This document shows positions 1 to 38,320 of a stretch of 45,102 nucleotides of DNA, in pieces. Numbering within the stretch: position 1 is the stretch's first letter; the number at the start of each line of letters is the position of its first letter. The notes under the pieces are model-generated. The model was given only the letters and a program-made list of their open reading frames with translations, was not told where the DNA came from and made no database searches. The DNA comes from an uncultured Kiritimatiellota bacterium (lineage in GTDB: Bacteria; Verrucomicrobiota; Kiritimatiellia; RFP12; DVOR01). The position numbers and the translations under genes are program-made. Where the stretch lies: positions 1 through 45,102 of the forward strand of contig CALXMT010000019.1 in assembly GCA_944389545.1 (NCBI GenBank), read 5' to 3'.

Positions 1-14
1 AAAGGACCGTTTTT

Positions 15-899
15 GTGGTGAATGAGGCTGATTTCAAGGCTTGCAAGCCGTTTGTGAAGTGGGCTGGCGGGAAGCGTCAGTTGTTGCCGGAGATAGAGGC
101 ACGCGTTCCTTTGGAGGCGTTGCGTTCCGGTGCGTTTAGCTATGTTGAGCCGTTTGTCGGTGGGGGCGCGGTGCTTTTCCGGGTGTTGGCGCGTGTGCCG
201 AGTGTCCGGGCGGTGGTGAATGACCTAAATCCTCGGCTTGTGGGGGCCTATCGGGCAATCCGTGATGACGTGGATACTGTCATTGAGCGGCTGTCCGAGT
301 TTGAGGTGGCGTTTTTGCCGTTGGATGAGGCGGGGCGTCTCGATTTTTATCTAGCGATTCGCCAAAGGTTCAACAGTCGGGCAGTGAATGCGACGGAAGA
401 GGTGGCGATGCTTCTTTTCTTGAACCGGACGTGTTTCAATGGGCTTTATCGGGAGAACGCGAAGGGGGCGTTCAACGTCCCTTATGGCAAGGTTAAGCGT
501 CCTTGTATCTGTGATCGAGAGACGTTGTTGGCGGATGCGTGTGCGCTGCAGGGCGTGGATTGCCTGTGCGGGGATTTCGCGGCCGTCCTTGAGCGGGTGG
601 ATGGTCCTGCCTTCTTTTATTTGGATCCGCCTTATAAGCCCATCAGCCAGACCTCCAGTTTCAACGCTTACACCAGTGTTCCTTTTGATGATGTGGAGCA
701 GGCGCGGCTGGCACAGTTTTGCCGGGCGCTTGACGCCGCCGGTCATCGGTTCTTGCTTAGCAATTCAGACCCTGGGGGTGGTTTCTTCGAGCAGCTCTAC
801 AAGGGTTTTCGCATTGAGCGGGTTCAGGCTCGCCGCTGCGTCAATGCCAACCCGGCCAAGCGGGGGGCTCTCAGTGAGTTGCTTATTTCGAATTTCTGA
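15..899 (+). CDS. dpnM: Dam-class N6-adenine DNA methyltransferase of a DpnII-type system (M1)
   Basis: Predicted to methylate adenine in double-stranded GATC and protect host DNA from the endonuclease encoded next. The 294-aa protein has the D12-class motif FVKWAGGKRQ at residues 13-22, EPFVGGGAVLF at 45-55 (SAM binding) and the catalytic DPPY at 204-207, in the order and spacing of DpnM/Dam enzymes and at the family's usual length. The start is GTG at 15 or 18. Only 14 bases precede it, but they contain AAAGGACCGTTTTT, which resembles the ribosome-site leader seen upstream of 37766. An upstream in-frame extension beyond the window edge cannot be excluded. It is followed by 12 nt and then the endonuclease gene. 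Confidence 0.93.
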   Translation: MVNEADFKACKPFVKWAGGKRQLLPEIEARVPLEALRSGAFSYVEPFVGGGAVLFRVLARVPSVRAVVNDLNPRLVGAYRAIRDDVDTVIERLSEFEVAFLPLDEAGRLDFYLAIRQRFNSRAVNATEEVAMLLFLNRTCFNGLYRENAKGAFNVPYGKVKRPCICDRETLLADACALQGVDCLCGDFAAVLERVDGPAFFYLDPPYKPISQTSSFNAYTSVPFDDVEQARLAQFCRALDAAGHRFLLSNSDPGGGFFEQLYKGFRIERVQARRCVNANPAKRGALSELLISNF

Positions 900-911
900 G
901 GAGGCGTATTT

Positions 912-1766
912 ATGCAGACGAGGGATTTTGACAGTTGGTTGGCCACATTCCGTGAGAGTATCGCCACGTATTCTTATTATACGGATTTTGGGAAGGTCAT
1001 TGCCAATGCGAATGCCATCCGCAGGCAGCTTTGCCTGATGAATTCTCTTTTGGGCTCGGGTGACAAGTTTGAGGCGGAGTTTGAGTCTTTGGCCCATGAT
1101 TATCCTGAAATTCTGCAGTGCATTCCCATTTTGCTCGCTTCGCGAAACAAGCTGATTCCTGTTCAGACCTCGGAGGCGTTTTTGGTTTTTGACTTCAAGC
1201 AACCCAATCTGGATCTCCATCATTACACCGAGTTTATGCGCAACACCGGGTTGGCGGACTTGATAGGGAGACGGTTGGTTTCCTCTCTGGTTGATTATGT
1301 CTTTGGTGTGGAGGCAGGGCTCGACTCAAACGCGCGGAAGAATCGCGGCGGTCATCTGATGGAGGATTTGGTGGAGACTTTCTTGAAAGAGGCTCACCTT
1401 TCCCCGCAGAAGGAGGTCTATGCATCGGCGCTTGAATCCGCGTGTGGGTTGGACCTCTCGCCACTTTCCAATGACGGGAAGACGGAGAAACGTTTTGACT
1501 TTGTGGTTGAGACCAAGCAGGCCGTCTATGCGATTGAGACGAACTTTTATGCCGGCGGCGGCTCGAAGCTCAACGAAACGGCGCGAAGTTACAAAACGCT
1601 TGCTTTGGAATCGCGGGCCATTCCGAACTTTCGATTTGTCTGGTTTACGGATGGGCAGGGGTGGTGGAGCGCACGCAACAACCTGCGTGAGACGTTTGAT
1701 GTTTTGCCTGACCTCTATTGCATCCATGATTTGGAGCAGGGGGTGGCGAATCGGATTTTCCAATGA
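912..1766 (+). CDS. dpnB: DpnII/MboI-family type II restriction endonuclease
   Basis: Predicted endonuclease cutting unmethylated GATC. The 284-aa protein matches the DpnII family along its length. It has the region GLDSNARKNRGGHLMED at about 136-152, and the nuclease core with an acidic residue in KRFDFVV (D196) followed by AIETNFYAGGGSKLNE (207-222), a PD-(D/E)XK-like arrangement. A strong AGGAGG site sits 5 to 10 nt before the ATG. The stop codon overlaps the next ATG (ATGA at 1763-1766), so translation is probably coupled. The gene lies between the two methylase genes; in the pneumococcal DpnII operon the order is M-A-B, so this arrangement differs. Confidence 0.9.
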   Translation: MQTRDFDSWLATFRESIATYSYYTDFGKVIANANAIRRQLCLMNSLLGSGDKFEAEFESLAHDYPEILQCIPILLASRNKLIPVQTSEAFLVFDFKQPNLDLHHYTEFMRNTGLADLIGRRLVSSLVDYVFGVEAGLDSNARKNRGGHLMEDLVETFLKEAHLSPQKEVYASALESACGLDLSPLSNDGKTEKRFDFVVETKQAVYAIETNFYAGGGSKLNETARSYKTLALESRAIPNFRFVWFTDGQGWWSARNNLRETFDVLPDLYCIHDLEQGVANRIFQ

Positions 1767-2656
1767 TGCCTACGCGCTGGTATACCTCTGCGAACCGCGA
1801 TTTCACCCTGGTCCAAGGGGATTGCGTGGAGACGTTGCGGGGATTTGACTTTGAGTTCGACATGGCCTTTGCCGACCCGCCTTACTTTTTGTCTAATGGC
1901 GGTATTTCCGTTCAGGCCGGCAAGTGCGTGTGCGTGGACAAGGGAAACTGGGACAAACCGCGCGGACGTGAGGAGGAAGCTGCTTTTACGCGAGCTTGGT
2001 TGGGAGCGGTGCGCGACAAGTTGGCCCCTCATGGGACGGTGTGGGTGAGTGGGACTTTCCACAACATCTTTGCGGTGGCGGAGGCTTTGGAGGACTTGGG
2101 CTTTCGTTTACTGAATGCGGTGGTCTGGGAAAAGAGCAATCCGCCGCCGAATCTGTCCTGCCGTTATTTCACCCATTCCGCGGAAATCGTTCTCTGGGCC
2201 CGCAAATCAGAAAAGGTCCCCCATCGTTATAACTATGAAGCCATGCGGGCCATTGCCGGTGGCAAACAAATGCGCGATGTGTGGAAGCTTCCGGCCATTG
2301 CGCCATGGGAGAAGGTCGGTGGCGTCAAGCATCCGACGCAAAAGCCGCTTTCCTTGCTTGCGAGAATCATCCTGGCTTGCACTCGGCCCGGTGATTGGGT
2401 GCTTGACCCATTCTGTGGGAGTGGTACAACGGGCATTGCCGCGGCGTTGTTTGGGCGACGGTTTCTGGGAATTGACTTGGAGGCGGACTTTTTGCGTCTG
2501 GCACGGAATCGCCGTGAGGCGTTGGATGTGCCTGGGGCCAGGCAGGAGATGTTTCGGAAATTGCAGGGATTTGAGCAAGCGTCCGCTTTGGCCGAAACCT
2601 TTGCGGCAGAGAATGAATTTTGCTTGGCGGAGCCCGGTCTGGACCTTCCTTTTTGA
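1763..2656 (+). CDS. dpnA: Second adenine-specific DNA methyltransferase (DpnA-like, M2)
   Basis: Predicted second GATC methylase. In DpnII systems the DpnA type also methylates single-stranded DNA, which protects incoming DNA. The 297-aa protein has DPPY at 38-41 near the N-terminus and the SAM-binding DPFCGSGTTG near residue 212, the N6/N4 methylase permutation that is opposite to the M1 enzyme. It overlaps the endonuclease stop by 4 nt (ATGA). A second ATG one codon downstream is also possible. No obvious rho-independent terminator follows. Confidence 0.9.
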   Translation: MMPTRWYTSANRDFTLVQGDCVETLRGFDFEFDMAFADPPYFLSNGGISVQAGKCVCVDKGNWDKPRGREEEAAFTRAWLGAVRDKLAPHGTVWVSGTFHNIFAVAEALEDLGFRLLNAVVWEKSNPPPNLSCRYFTHSAEIVLWARKSEKVPHRYNYEAMRAIAGGKQMRDVWKLPAIAPWEKVGGVKHPTQKPLSLLARIILACTRPGDWVLDPFCGSGTTGIAAALFGRRFLGIDLEADFLRLARNRREALDVPGARQEMFRKLQGFEQASALAETFAAENEFCLAEPGLDLPF

Positions 2657-17392: not shown

Positions 17393-17394
17393 TG

Positions 17395-17503
17395 AGACCC
17401 TATAAGGGCCCTCCTCCGACCCTTAAGGGTTTCGACCCCGACCACTATAGGGTCTCACCCTCGACCACTATAGTGGTTGACCTCGGACCCTTATAGGGTC
17501 TCA
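17395..17503. repeat. Array of palindromes on a 23-bp period (array 2)
   Basis: Palindromic cores CCCTATAAGGG, CCCTTAAGGG, CACTATAGGG, CCACTATAGTGG and CCCTTATAGGG are centred near 17403, 17424.5, 17447.5, 17470.5 and 17493; the last four are 22.5-23 bp apart. The order is roughly the reverse of array 1 at 12139-12241. Confidence 0.85.
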
Positions 17504-26790: not shown

Positions 26791-26818
26791 CAGTATGCGT
26801 TGTCTTTAGAGATGAGTT

Positions 26819-26827
26819 TGCTATACT
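26819..26827 (+). promoter_or_regulatory. Extended -10 promoter for the GT2 gene at 26934
   Basis: TGC-TATACT with TTGTCT 16 bp upstream. Leader of about 100 nt. Confidence 0.7.
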
Positions 26828-26850
26828 TTGTGTGTTACTTTTACTTGCGC

Positions 26851-26937
26851 ATGAAACGCTCGTTTATTTGCGCGATTGATACTCTGATTGTTCCTCATAA
26901 CTCAAAGATCGTAAACCTTACAGGGCTGAACCGATGA
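26851..26937 (+). CDS. Upstream small ORF (28 aa) coupled to the GT2 gene
   Basis: ATG at 26851 lies about 18 nt into the predicted transcript and the TGA overlaps the GT2 ATG (ATGA at 26934-26937). The peptide begins MKRSFICAIDTLIVP. It has no clear ribosome site. It could be a leader peptide regulating the glycosyltransferase; this is inference from position only. Confidence 0.4.
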   Translation: MKRSFICAIDTLIVPHNSKIVNLTGLNR

Positions 26938-28088
26938 GCGCTACTCAGAAGGCAATTTCAATTTCTCCCGAATCAGTCATTGCGACGATTCGTGATGCAC
27001 GTGAAGCGCTCGCGCATGTGGATGTCGCCGATGATGGGGAGCCTCAGGATTTCCCGATCCCATCGCCACCTGCAACGCCTCCTCTTGTCAGTGTAGAGGT
27101 TCTGGTCTACAACCAAGCGTGTACTCTTCGGCAGTGCGTTGAAAGCATTGTGGTGCAACAAACGAACTTTCCTTTTGAGGTAATCATTGGCAATGACTGC
27201 AGCACGGATGATTCGCTAGATGTAGCTTTGGAGCTTCAACGTGCCTATCCGGACAAGATTCGCGTCATCTCCACACGGCGTAACGTGGGATTAAACCGCA
27301 ACGCACGTAATGTTCGCCGTGTTATGCGTGGGGTCTTTGCTGCTTTTTGCGAAGGCGACGACTGGTGGCTTACAAAGACGCGCCTCCAGGAACAGGTGAG
27401 CGTCCTTCAAGAAAATCCAAACGTCTCATTGGTTCATGGCCTCACTCAATTTTACGATGAGAAATCAGGGGCGACCACAGAAAACGCCTTGCGTTGGAAG
27501 CTGTCGCCCAATCGATTCGCCCAGATATTCGACGAAACCTATCGTGTTGAAACCGCAGGAGCCGTGTGCCGAGTCAAAGATTTGCTCCGTATTTATCAGG
27601 AATGTCCGCAACTCATCGATGCACACTTCCGAATGCTTGATACGCAGCTCTTCTGTCTGCTCTCTTCTTGGGGTGAAGTCATGTGCTTGCCTTATGCGGT
27701 ATCCGTTCGCCGTTACTCTGGGCAATCACTCAGCCGCAATGACAATCCCCTTCGCAGCCTAACTTATCATGACAATGCGTTCGCCATGATGTTAAAGCTT
27801 TGCGACTATTTCCACCAAGGCCACAGGGCACGTGCACGCATTGCTAATCACTATCTCTCCGGTGCCTGTCAAACATTGCGCCGCGCCTTCACCTCGAGCG
27901 AGGCTCGCATGATTCTTCAGACGCTTTATCCGGAGTTTCGTCGTCGTATCGCTTGGTTGAGTTTACTCCCGCCGCCACACAACCGAATGCTTCGGAAGGC
28001 GTACTACCATCTCATCTTCCCTGTCGCCAAATACAGGAACAGTTTTTGCATAAGGTCTGTACCCAACGTTTCACAATCTGTCGATTGA
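26934..28088 (+). CDS. Family 2 glycosyltransferase
   Basis: The 384-aa cytoplasmic GT-A enzyme has an N-terminal extension of about 55 residues (acidic, then Pro-rich), SVEVLVYNQACTLRQCVES, the NDCSTDD site near residue 90 and FCEGDDWW near 140, the acidic metal site. An AGGG ribosome site precedes the ATG. The last 77 bases overlap the 3' end of the convergent GT2 gene. Middle-level GC and codon use differ from fusA or era. The donor and acceptor are unknown. Confidence 0.88.
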   Translation: MSATQKAISISPESVIATIRDAREALAHVDVADDGEPQDFPIPSPPATPPLVSVEVLVYNQACTLRQCVESIVVQQTNFPFEVIIGNDCSTDDSLDVALELQRAYPDKIRVISTRRNVGLNRNARNVRRVMRGVFAAFCEGDDWWLTKTRLQEQVSVLQENPNVSLVHGLTQFYDEKSGATTENALRWKLSPNRFAQIFDETYRVETAGAVCRVKDLLRIYQECPQLIDAHFRMLDTQLFCLLSSWGEVMCLPYAVSVRRYSGQSLSRNDNPLRSLTYHDNAFAMMLKLCDYFHQGHRARARIANHYLSGACQTLRRAFTSSEARMILQTLYPEFRRRIAWLSLLPPPHNRMLRKAYYHLIFPVAKYRNSFCIRSVPNVSQSVD

Positions 28089-29067
28089 TTCGACGCTTTA
28101 TCGCATACGGTATGCGTCCAAAAAACAATGCTCCGATACGGCAGAAAGAACCGGAGCACACGTGCAACACCAAGCGTTGCCATAAGGAGAAGCGGATTTC
28201 CGCTTTGAGTAACGCCCCAAGGGCGATGCGCCAACGTTCCCAAAGCACATCGTCATTGAATAAATGTAGTTCGCCTGCCAAACGTTCGACAACATTCCCA
28301 TAAAATTGTCTTACAAATGGTGCATCCCTGGCCAAAGGGGTCCCGGCTATCGCAGCACCCGCCAAGGTCCCGAACGCGATGCCATCCTCAATGCGTTTCC
28401 TCGTGGTGGCACTTCGCATTGCCGACCCTGGCCGCAAACGCAACCCATACGGCTTCCAAGATTGTATGACTCCGGTACGCATCCGAACGATCGCCTCGAT
28501 CAGGAAGAGTAAATCTTCGCCATATTTCAACATGGCATCAAAGCGTAAAGCCTCAATGCGTTTACGGCGATAGGCAATTTCGTAAAGCGCACCATACATG
28601 GACCGGAATGCCGCAGGGTTCCCCTCTTCTCCCAAAACGACAGTACGTTCGACCGGTGGTTCGTCTTGTCTGAGGAATCGCGCTCCTCGTTCATCCCCAA
28701 CCTGTGCACGAAAAAGGACCGCATCGAGCGTTGATGGCCCTTTTTCTATGCTTTCGCCTACCCATTGCAAAAGACGCGGATGAAATGTGTCATCTCCATC
28801 TAAAAACAAGACCCATTGGCCACGGATTTTGCCCAATGCTCGATTCCTGGCCACGGAGACGCCTCGATTAGGTTGATGCACCACGCGAAACCGCTTGTCC
28901 ATTCGAGCATAGGCATCCAAAACCAAACCAAGCTCATCCGGACTCCCATCATTGACGCACAAACATTCCCAATCCGAATAGGTTTGGTTGAGCACAGAGT
29001 TCAACCCTTCTTGTAAATACTGCTCGACTTTATAGCAAGGTACAATGATTGAGAACTGACATCCCAT
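28012..29067 (-). CDS. Family 2 glycosyltransferase
   Basis: The 351-aa protein begins MGCQFSIIVPCYKVEQYLQE, with CVNDGSPDELG near residue 35 and VLFLDGDDTFHP near 90 (metal site), a standard GT2/WcaA-like domain followed by a basic C-terminal region (RRINRQIVKRW). AGGAG lies 9 nt before the ATG. It is divergent from the GT17 gene, sharing a short promoter region with inverted repeats, and tail-to-tail overlapping with the GT2 gene at 26934. Confidence 0.9.
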   Translation of the reverse strand: MGCQFSIIVPCYKVEQYLQEGLNSVLNQTYSDWECLCVNDGSPDELGLVLDAYARMDKRFRVVHQPNRGVSVARNRALGKIRGQWVLFLDGDDTFHPRLLQWVGESIEKGPSTLDAVLFRAQVGDERGARFLRQDEPPVERTVVLGEEGNPAAFRSMYGALYEIAYRRKRIEALRFDAMLKYGEDLLFLIEAIVRMRTGVIQSWKPYGLRLRPGSAMRSATTRKRIEDGIAFGTLAGAAIAGTPLARDAPFVRQFYGNVVERLAGELHLFNDDVLWERWRIALGALLKAEIRFSLWQRLVLHVCSGSFCRIGALFFGRIPYAIKRRINRQIVKRWVQTLCKNCSCIWRQGR

Positions 29068-29090: not shown

Positions 29091-29185
29091 CAAATAAACG
29101 GACCTTTATTTGTGGTGGTCGGCGTCCTTGGTTTTGCTATACTTGTAAGCGCGAAAGACGCGACAAATAAAGGTCCGTTTATTTG
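29091..29185. promoter_or_regulatory. Divergent promoter region with perfect 22-bp inverted repeats
   Basis: The 22-mer CAAATAAA-CGGACC-TTTATTTG at 29091-29112 is the exact reverse complement of the one at 29164-29185; each also has CAAATAAA/TTTATTTG arms that can form a hairpin. They flank the extended -10 TGC-TATACT (29135-29143, plus) and a weaker minus-strand TATAGC. On each strand the transcript for the divergent glycosyltransferase would begin just before one copy, read as CAAATAAAGGTCCG, which includes AAAGG. Confidence 0.75.
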
Positions 29186-29222: not shown

Positions 29223-30227
29223 ATGATTTACGATTGTTTCACGTTCTTTAATGAGTTGGATCTTTTGGAAATCCGTCTGAACATCCTTAAAGATGTCGTT
29301 GACAAATTCGTCATTGTTGAGGCGACACACAACCATCAAGGAGAAACGAAACCTCTTTATTTTCAAGAGAATGAAAAAAGATTCCATTCATTCCAGAATA
29401 AAATCATTCATGTAATTGCAGATAATCCTCCACCTTTGACAAATTCCCCACAAGACCACTTGGGAAACACCTGGGCCATCGAAAATTGGCAACGTTCGCA
29501 AATCGGTAATGCTTTACAGGGTTGCTGTGACGAAGATGTCATTATCCTTTCAGATATGGATGAGATTCCGAGACCAGAGGCAATCGTACGGAATATTAAA
29601 AATCCAGGTATAACGACATTTTTCGTGGACAATTACAATTTCTTCGTTAATTTCAAGAGTTCTGAACCACCCTTTCCTGTCGTAAAGATGGTTACATATG
29701 GGTATTATCGGCAGCATCTACCGAATCTTCCCTTCCCAGAGAATCAGAAATTCAGGATTTTACCCCAGTACTGGCAAGTTGCAGATCCAAATAAACTTCG
29801 TGCACTTCCTGGAGATCACCTCGTCCCCCATGGAGGTTGGCATTTTTCGTATTTAGGCGGACTTGAGCAAATTTTACGGAAACGACGTTCCATCGTTGAG
29901 CAACAATATAATGACGATGAGACCACTTCTGCAGAATGGGTTATTCAACGTATCCGTCAAGGCCGTGACATTTATCGACGTGGCTATCTATTTTATCCTA
30001 CAAACCGCGGGCTGCCGCGCTATCTTTTAAGCAAGAAACAACAGTACCCCCAATTGTTTTGGCACGCCCATTTTCTTGGCGAGGCACAGTTGCTCGCGTT
30101 TCGCTTTGGCCTGTTGAAACTGGCCAGCAAAGCGCTTTGTCTTCTGCGCTCCGCTTCATTCCTAAGACCAATTTACATGGCCTTGAAGCGTTTCATCCCC
30201 ATTTTCAAAGGTCGCCTCACGCATTGA
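29223..30227 (+). CDS. Family 17 glycosyltransferase (N-acetylglucosaminyltransferase III-like)
   Basis: The 334-aa protein matches GT17: MIYDCFTFFNELDLLEIRLN at the start, FVIVEATHNHQGETKPL at about 29-45, and ILSDMDEIPRPEAI near 113, the acidic metal site. Eukaryotic members add bisecting GlcNAc; bacterial members lie in surface-glycan loci and their acceptors are unknown. I start at the ATG at 29223, where family similarity begins. An upstream in-frame reading through the inverted repeat would need a rare start such as ATT after AAAGG. The gene is clearly AT-richer than its neighbours, a sign of transfer. Confidence 0.88.
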   Translation: MIYDCFTFFNELDLLEIRLNILKDVVDKFVIVEATHNHQGETKPLYFQENEKRFHSFQNKIIHVIADNPPPLTNSPQDHLGNTWAIENWQRSQIGNALQGCCDEDVIILSDMDEIPRPEAIVRNIKNPGITTFFVDNYNFFVNFKSSEPPFPVVKMVTYGYYRQHLPNLPFPENQKFRILPQYWQVADPNKLRALPGDHLVPHGGWHFSYLGGLEQILRKRRSIVEQQYNDDETTSAEWVIQRIRQGRDIYRRGYLFYPTNRGLPRYLLSKKQQYPQLFWHAHFLGEAQLLAFRFGLLKLASKALCLLRSASFLRPIYMALKRFIPIFKGRLTH

Positions 30228-35075: not shown

Positions 35076-36026
35076 ATGTACACCACGAACGATGAGCGGG
35101 AGCCCATTGTCATAGACTCCTTTGAGGATTTTATCCATAAAGTATTGTCCACCATTGACTCTTTAATGGAGCAGCAAAAACAACATGGGAACCCAGTTGC
35201 GTTTTACTTCAGAGGTCAAGCTGATCGTGCATGGGACCTAACGCCTCGATTGGCGCGTGAAGACAAGGGATTGGGCTATTTGGAAGATTTTGAGCGGAGG
35301 CTTATTGAGCAAGCTTGTCAGAGACTTCCCCAGCTTTTCAAAAATATCTTAACTCCACTCGATTTACTTGCGCAATTACAACACTATGGAATCCCGACTC
35401 GACTTTTGGATATCACACTCAATCCACTTGTCGCGCTTTACTTTGCTTGTTTGCCTATTCACTCAAGGCACAACAATGAAACAGATGGCGAAGTCTTCCT
35501 TTTTCAGTCAGAGTTGGCGCATGAAGGGACTTTCCCTCTTGTGCAAGCGATTGCCGACACCTATCGCCTTAACCCATACTCAGACTTCGAATTGTCCTAC
35601 TTTTACGATACCATGATTGAGATGGATTATTTTCGTTCACAATACATGACTGTAAAGAGTTTATATTCAACACCGGAGGAAAAAGAGGAGTATTTGAGGA
35701 ATGCTCTTAATCGGACATTTTTCGTTCACGCAAGCCAAAATTTTGCACGGCAGCATGCACAACAAGGCGCATATATACTCTTCCCGAATGTTATTGAGAA
35801 CACATCTTTCAAAAATCGTCTTTGTACTATGTCGAAGACAAATCAAGACATAACGGCCATCTTTCAGATTAAAGCATCGAGTAAAACTGCCATTTTATCT
35901 GCGCTGTCACGGATGGGCTTCAATTATGCCACACTCTTTCCCGATGATTATGATGGTGTATGTGCGAATATTGTTGAGTCCGCAAAAAATGTTGATCCCA
36001 ATAATGCCTTTAGGTTTAAGTTATAG
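35076..36026 (+). CDS. FRG-domain protein
   Basis: The 316-aa protein carries an FRG domain named for its motif: FYFRGQADRAWDLTPRLARE at about residues 43-62, followed by YGIPTRLLDITLNPLVALYF near 107-126, the second conserved block. FRG proteins are often found in defence islands and prophages, and the domain is suspected to be enzymatic, but no activity is established. No transmembrane or signal sequence is seen. It is markedly AT-rich and stands alone between repeats in a glycan locus, consistent with horizontal acquisition. Confidence 0.88.
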   Translation: MYTTNDEREPIVIDSFEDFIHKVLSTIDSLMEQQKQHGNPVAFYFRGQADRAWDLTPRLAREDKGLGYLEDFERRLIEQACQRLPQLFKNILTPLDLLAQLQHYGIPTRLLDITLNPLVALYFACLPIHSRHNNETDGEVFLFQSELAHEGTFPLVQAIADTYRLNPYSDFELSYFYDTMIEMDYFRSQYMTVKSLYSTPEEKEEYLRNALNRTFFVHASQNFARQHAQQGAYILFPNVIENTSFKNRLCTMSKTNQDITAIFQIKASSKTAILSALSRMGFNYATLFPDDYDGVCANIVESAKNVDPNNAFRFKL

Positions 36027-37616: not shown

Positions 37617-37718
37617 GGCGGGAGTCTCCCTCAGGGGGTGATGGTGCGGTGTGACCGCTGGTCGCTCGTTTCCGAACTCGATGGACCTTCTTTCGCCAGT
37701 AAGGCATCGATGGTGATT

Positions 37719-37727
37719 TGCTATACT
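37719..37727 (+). promoter_or_regulatory. Extended -10 promoter for the hexapeptide acetyltransferase
   Basis: TGC-TATACT followed 21 nt later by the leader AAATAAAGGAACGTTTT and the ATG; the AAATAAAGG word is shared with the inverted repeats at 29091-29185. Confidence 0.7.
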
Positions 37728-37765
37728 TTGGGTAGTTTTCACCACTGTAAATAAAGGAACGTTTT

Positions 37766-38320
37766 ATGCAGGGTTTGCACTTGGAGGATTATAAGAATCG
37801 GCATTCGCTGCGGAGCAAGGCGGCGCGTGGGGTGTGGATGATTGTGTGGGCGGTGTTGTTTCGGCCGACGCCGCGGGGGCGGCTGTTTATGCCGTGGCGG
37901 GCGTTTTTGTTGCGGTGCTTTGGGGCGAAGTTGGGGCGCGGGGCGAATGTGTTGCCGTCGTGCCGGGTGTGGCAGCCGTGGCGCTTGACGATGGGGGATC
38001 ACAGTTGTCTTTCGGAGCGCGTGGATTGCTACAATGCGGCGGAAATCATAATCGGCGCACAGGCGGTGGTCTCGCAGGATGCTTTTCTCTGCACGGCTTC
38101 GCACGATATCGGCAGTCCTATCATGGAGCTGACCACGGCTCCGGTTGTGATTGGGGCGCAGGCGTGGGTGTGCGCGCGGGCGGTGGTGTTGCCGGGGGTG
38201 ACGGTGGGGGAGGGTGCGGTCGTCGCCGCCGCTGCCGTGGTCACCAAGGATGTTGCGCCATGGGCCATCGTCGGTGGCAATCCGGCGCGGGTGATTGGCC
38301 GGCGAGAGTTGCGGGCTTAG
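37766..38320 (+). CDS. WcaF-like hexapeptide-repeat acetyltransferase
   Basis: The 184-aa left-handed beta-helix acetyltransferase has DYKNRHSLRSKAARGVWMIV at the N-terminus, hexapeptide turns (VLPSCRVWQPWRLTMGDHSC; AQAWVCARAVVLPGVTVGEG), the catalytic His region in CTASHDIG near residue 114, and PARVIGRRELRA at the end. This matches colanic-acid-type WcaF acetyltransferases that O-acetylate exopolysaccharide sugars. It is a single-gene unit. Confidence 0.92.
   Translation: MQGLHLEDYKNRHSLRSKAARGVWMIVWAVLFRPTPRGRLFMPWRAFLLRCFGAKLGRGANVLPSCRVWQPWRLTMGDHSCLSERVDCYNAAEIIIGAQAVVSQDAFLCTASHDIGSPIMELTTAPVVIGAQAWVCARAVVLPGVTVGEGAVVAAAAVVTKDVAPWAIVGGNPARVIGRRELRA

Follow-up and report, generated by a model that had tools for sequence, protein, structure and literature searches.

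The region at positions 29091–29185 of the window (the whole 45 102-nucleotide stretch that was analysed, contig C19 of genome G000) is very probably an Mpi-type invertible promoter, or inverton, in which a one-way promoter would be switched between a glycosyltransferase family 17 (GT17) gene and a divergent glycosyltransferase family 2 (GT2) gene. Three functions had been suggested when the region was first annotated: operator, invertible promoter and shared 5′ leader. The second of these is strongly supported by the opposite orientation of the promoter in the related genome G015, by recombination sites with pair-matched cores, by the presence of an Mpi-family invertase and by contig breaks at the sites; the leader was rejected as the main function. 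The features of the window are listed in Table 1.

Table 1. Coordinates of the switch region, its neighbouring genes and related elements in the window
Feature	Position	Strand	Remarks
Putative left recombination site	29091–29112	-	CAAATAAAGG-TC-CGTTTATTTG; core dinucleotide 29101–29102; exact reverse complement of 29164–29185
Putative right recombination site	29164–29185	+	CAAATAAAGG-TC-CGTTTATTTG; core dinucleotide 29174–29175; 73 bp from left core
Putative invertible interior	29113–29163	.	51 bp; promoter close to the middle (19 and 18 nt from the 23-bp arms)
Promoter word TTTGCTATACTT (extended -10)	29133–29144	+	50 genome matches with ≤1 mismatch; reversed control, 1 match
GT2 gene	28012–29067	-	PF00535, E 1.9e-32; G015 orthologue 58%
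GT17 gene	29223–30227	+	PF04724, E 3.9e-23; G015 orthologue 65–66%
Probable decayed inverton	37683–37764	+	Precedes hexapeptide acyltransferase gene
Probable inverton remnant	26817–26870	+	Promoter 26817–26828, then one site AAACG-CT-CGTTTATTTG; before GT2 gene at 26934
Second site, outer part of right arm	1–18	+	AAAGG-AC-CGTTTTTGTGG; contig begins inside site
Dam-family adenine methyltransferase	15–899	+	TIGR00571, 268.8 bits; first gene of DpnII-type restriction-modification operon
DpnII endonuclease	912–1766		Second gene listed in operon
Second methyltransferase	1763–2656		Same DpnII-type operon

Inverted repeats, promoter and flanking genes

The perfect 22-bp inverted repeats described in the initial annotation were confirmed: the left arm, CAAATAAACGGACCTTTATTTG, and the right arm, CAAATAAAGGTCCGTTTATTTG, are exact reverse complements lying 51 bp apart, and an extra inner pair extends them to 23 bp, leaving 49 bp inside. 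Over 60 dinucleotide shuffles of the window the best perfect inverted repeat at the same distance was 14 bp; a repeat of 22 or 23 bp is far beyond chance. Taken singly, each arm is nearly palindromic (18 of 22 positions).

The word TTTGCTATACTT is a true genome-wide promoter element, and 55 exact copies were found across 17 genomes of the genus. The copy at 29133–29144 is the only clear promoter word between the arms and reads rightward, toward the GT17 gene, so that, as is expected of an inverton, a promoter framed by inverted repeats precedes a gene. Judged by its direction, the GT17 gene would be ON in the assembled orientation and the GT2 gene ON in the inverted one. The start of the GT17 gene is most likely the ATG at 29223 and not the GTG at 29112, a placement that was made by comparison with the G015 orthologue.

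G015, an uncultured Kiritimatiellaeota of the same genus (CALXMV010000003), carries an orthologous divergent GT2/GT17 pair with 58% and 65% identity, respectively. At this locus the same promoter word is surrounded by 30-bp perfect repeats, unlike those of the window in sequence, and it faces the GT2 gene, i.e. opposite to the window. The interiors of the two loci have 15 bp in common (GGTTTTGCTATACTT), only if one of them is inverted. Both orientations were therefore found among relatives at the same locus, this being one locus compared between species.

Related segments and their central dinucleotides

Other copies near promoters, the absence of which, together with a lack of inverted reads, had been named at the outset as evidence against the proposal, were searched for and found, as repeat-flanked promoters in related genomes. 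At least eight such loci were located in four related genomes, among them promoters at polysaccharide pyruvyl transferase and hexapeptide acyltransferase genes in G001, G005 and G007. When all 55 exact copies of the promoter word from 17 genomes were compared in an unbiased census, 11 had flanking repeats scoring ≥13, representing 10 loci as contigs C16 and C19 of G007 carry one element, and the remaining copies scored ≤10. The promoter was near-centred in the strongest loci, and core-to-core spacing, measured by script, was 73–77 bp in eight segments. The weakest of the census loci, with cores that do not match, is on G007 C4 at ∼126.6 kb (L275, L080), where a promoter with flanking TGGCCTAGAAAAA repeats is found just upstream of a tmRNA-like sequence. 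G003 and G008, which encode close Mpi orthologues, yielded no repeat-flanked TTTGCTATACTT promoter in the census, and their promoter and site usage may differ. A strict repeat pattern searched across 291 relatives matched only G000 and G005; with relaxed arms within the genus, the arm sequence was seen to vary by species. Single AAAGGNNCGTTTA matches in G002, G004, G008, G009, G010 and G014 were set aside, as they mostly resemble chance occurrences or other contexts.

The sites follow the pattern [A/G]AA[C/G]G-NN-C[C/G]TTT, or one close to it, with outer arms that are longer and species-specific. The central NN has six values (TC, AC, GA, TA, GT and GG). A list compiled by hand contained 15 site pairs, 12 within one contig and three across two contig ends (G000 C60/C19, G005 C16/C20 and G007 C19/C16). 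The dinucleotide was variable between pairs and identical within 15 out of 15, pairs which are not fully independent given related sites and common ancestry, and 200 000 random pairings produced at most 11 matched pairs. Serine recombinases carry out strand exchange across a 2-bp core, and the cores of partner sites must match, as the partner sites do here. The conservation of bases up to a 2-bp variable core fits a serine, not a tyrosine, recombinase.

Three repeat-flanked promoters lie within 5 kb on G015 C3 (L072 7068–11839), with cores TC, GT and TA, which differ as if to prevent cross-recombination.

Two further elements in the window appear to have lost part of this structure. The AAATAAAGGAACGTTT word reported ahead of the gene at 37766 is indeed present, at 37749, and belongs to a good right site (37749–37764, core AA) that follows a promoter at 37717–37728. 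The left site is a degenerate remnant near 37683, read by eye, in which the core would be TC and the spacing 74 bp. As the cores no longer match, this promoter is probably fixed ON. Orthologues of the hexapeptide acyltransferase gene have repeat-flanked promoters in G005, G007 and G015. The element at 26817–26870 has no left arm; the G015 orthologue keeps an intact repeat-flanked promoter.

A longer segment of ∼680 bp was observed between GG-core sites in G005 C2 (L070 6220–6910) and G001 C12 (L171 3886–4578). It contains a start codon with a signal peptide, whose reading frame continues across one site into the gene for a secreted protein, and the gene facing across the other site is without such a start; inversion would fuse this signal peptide with the other protein. 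The end of G000 C26 (L180) and the start of C30 (L181) are both at or near the same GGATAAAGG-GG-CGTTTTTGTG site and seem to represent this secreted-protein switch in G000.

Candidate recombinase and alternative readings

A search of the genome for the 22-mer and a linked invertase, as proposed in the initial annotation, was answered in part: the 2.53-Mb genome holds two copies of the 22-mer, i.e. the two arms only, and an Mpi-family gene is present, on a different contig from the 29091–29185 locus. This gene (G000 C42, 8062–8646) encodes a 201-aa protein, MTYGYIRVSTDKQ..., for which the model NF009949, 'master DNA invertase Mpi family', gave 289.7 bits (curated cut-off 272). Among proteins of solved structure, DNA invertases and resolvases are closest to it, Gin most of all, and it aligned with Gin and gamma-delta resolvase over residues 1–189, with the N-terminal catalytic serine and the C-terminal DNA-binding region of a small serine recombinase both included. 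The cut-off was also exceeded in G005, G007 and G015, and Mpi orthologues were found in most genomes of the genus; when 116 genomes of the class were sampled, the hits above the cut-off came from this genus and two other genomes.

It is unlikely that the inverton is flipped by some other enzyme, whether a tyrosine recombinase or the second, large serine recombinase encoded at C9 of G000. G000 does have three tyrosine-recombinase matches in addition to the C9 protein; however, G001 and G005, which have the same sites, encode only two tyrosine recombinases, probably XerC and XerD, and one serine recombinase each, in both cases of the Mpi family, and a serine enzyme would suit sites that vary only in the 2 bp of the core. 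Tyrosine recombinases were set aside as main candidates on these grounds, being few, probably XerC/D, and a poor match to the core.

The proposed series of events at an Mpi-type inverton would begin with a small serine recombinase dimer, most likely the C42 protein, binding each 22-bp near-palindromic site, in which the half-site would be CAAATAAAsG (s is G or C). The bound sites would pair, the enzyme would cut at the central dinucleotide, and rotation and rejoining would leave the DNA between the two cores inverted. The single TTTGCTATACTT promoter would then fire toward GT17 as assembled or toward GT2 when flipped, which would put the polysaccharide glycosyltransferases under phase-variable, either/or control. 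Flipping in this species, the role of the C42 protein in it and the dependence of transcription on the direction of the promoter are inferred. Points against the inverton reading are the 73-bp core-to-core loop, which is shorter than the segments inverted by Hin or Mpi and may be too short for synapsis, the placement of the Mpi gene on another contig and the finding of Mpi orthologues without such promoters in G003 and G008.

Contig breaks at the sites provide indirect evidence. Three sites in G000 lie ≤80 bp from a contig end, where ∼0.07 would be expected. Contigs C19 and C16 of G007 have exactly 77 bp in common, representing the whole segment, and C16 and C20 of G005 each end in a GT-core site. 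Mixed orientations would present the assembler with a fork at each segment end, and the breaks may thus be traces of flipping; contig breaks also have other possible causes.

These breaks are among several observations that are left unexplained if the two sites are instead paired operators, at which a dimeric regulator bound to both would loop out the promoter and control both glycosyltransferase genes. Near-palindromic sites with a promoter in the middle would suit such a regulator, as would a nearly constant spacing of 73–77 bp, 73 bp being about seven helical turns. Operators do not account, however, for core matching in 15 of 15 pairs with variation between pairs, for the opposite promoter orientation in G015 or for the 680-bp pairs with sites inside coding sequence, and this reading is considered quite improbable.

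The region had originally been called a symmetric divergent promoter, a description that did not hold. The sole promoter word is one-way on the + strand, a consensus sigma-70 scan detected no promoter on either strand and hence no leftward match, and the one promoter per strand that a divergent promoter would have was not found; the promoter is predicted to serve both directions only through flipping. The shared leader hairpin is real, with 8 bp, but weak (-3.8 kcal/mol alone), and results from the site being nearly palindromic. RNA leader structure was rejected as the main function, as the hairpin is not favoured in the longer leader, for which the predicted fold was not better than those of shuffled sequences (z -0.48). 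A truly symmetric promoter whose transcripts share a 5′ leader or hairpin is highly improbable, even though TATA is itself symmetric and either transcript would start near a site and its 8-bp hairpin.

Comparison with known systems and the defence locus

The proposed mechanism is already known from the Mpi promoters of Bacteroides fragilis, where Mpi inverts 13 regions, seven of which are polysaccharide promoters (summarised in PMC4747536). The recombinase of G000 belongs to the same family by the curated model, and other shared features are one enzyme acting on many scattered promoters, polysaccharide targets and a promoter between inverted repeats. In contrast to B. fragilis, the present elements are from another phylum, the segment is very short (73–77 bp core to core), the promoter lies between divergent genes in an either/or rather than an on/off arrangement, core dinucleotides are pair-specific, and restriction-modification and AIPR genes also flank segments. 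The short segment, the either/or layout, the pair-specific cores and the defence locus are provisionally regarded as new features.

Within the Verrucomicrobiota, Akkermansia muciniphila also has intergenic invertons (PMC11892184), one of them at a capsule locus, and the repeat motif of this cps1 inverton is CGGATT..AATCCG (PMC13343947). That motif was not found here, where the arms are CAAATAAAGGTCCGTTTATTTG, and the text of the cps1 paper uses neither 'recombinase' nor 'invertase' (PMC13343947). The Hin/hix flagellar switch of Salmonella is similar in having a small serine recombinase, a near-palindromic site and a core that must match; a single core base change blocks ligation by Hin in the inverted orientation (PMC4817059). 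Hin requires a Fis-bound enhancer, for which the 51-bp interior would leave little room inside the present segment. A literature search, largely confined to papers free of subscription, found none on phase variation in Kiritimatiellae and none joining invertons, Verrucomicrobia and phase variation.

If the reading is correct, Mpi-type phase variation, which has been studied in Bacteroides, would extend to the largely uncultured class Kiritimatiellae. The layout is compact and either/or, and sites of the same kind occur at genes for surface polysaccharides, at a pair of secreted-protein genes and at a defence locus. The 73-bp core spacing would test the lower length limit of a serine-invertase substrate, and contig breaks at sites may serve as an inexpensive indicator of active invertons in assembled metagenomes. 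The pair-specific cores resemble, in natural form, the orthogonal att cores that synthetic biology employs.

The defence locus is at the start of the window, where AAAGGACCGTTTTT was correctly noted at base 1, ahead of the dam gene (dpnM). The DpnII-type operon (window 1–2656; domain matches PF02086, PF04556 and PF01555) would form one side, and an AIPR/AbiU gene on G000 contig C60 (L182, 4557–6957) the other. C60 ends in ...AAATAAACGGTCCTTT and the window begins with AAAGGACCGTTT..., mirror-image positions of one site pair. The order AIPR, site, dam is conserved in G005 and G015, and C60 and C19 were taken as neighbours because the same gene order flanks the same kind of segment in those genomes. 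A broader proposal, that a single Mpi enzyme runs ultra-short either/or switches across the genus, with the core as an address barring cross-recombination and with one switch choosing the AIPR/AbiU gene or the DpnII operon so that each cell has one defence, is put forward tentatively, as less likely than not.

The AIPR/AbiU gene and the DpnII-type operon point away from a common segment between AC-core sites, and a promoter-like box in the AIPR–dam segment of G005 and G015 faces the AIPR gene. Elsewhere in the window an FRG-domain protein is encoded at 35076–36026 and matches the PADLOC candidate defence family PDC-S15. An unrelated 16-bp perfect inverted repeat, TGAGACCCTATAAGGG, with arms 79 bp apart, is located at 17393–17503, and a similar word, GACCCCTATAGTG, was found at L182 626–681 on C60 of G000.
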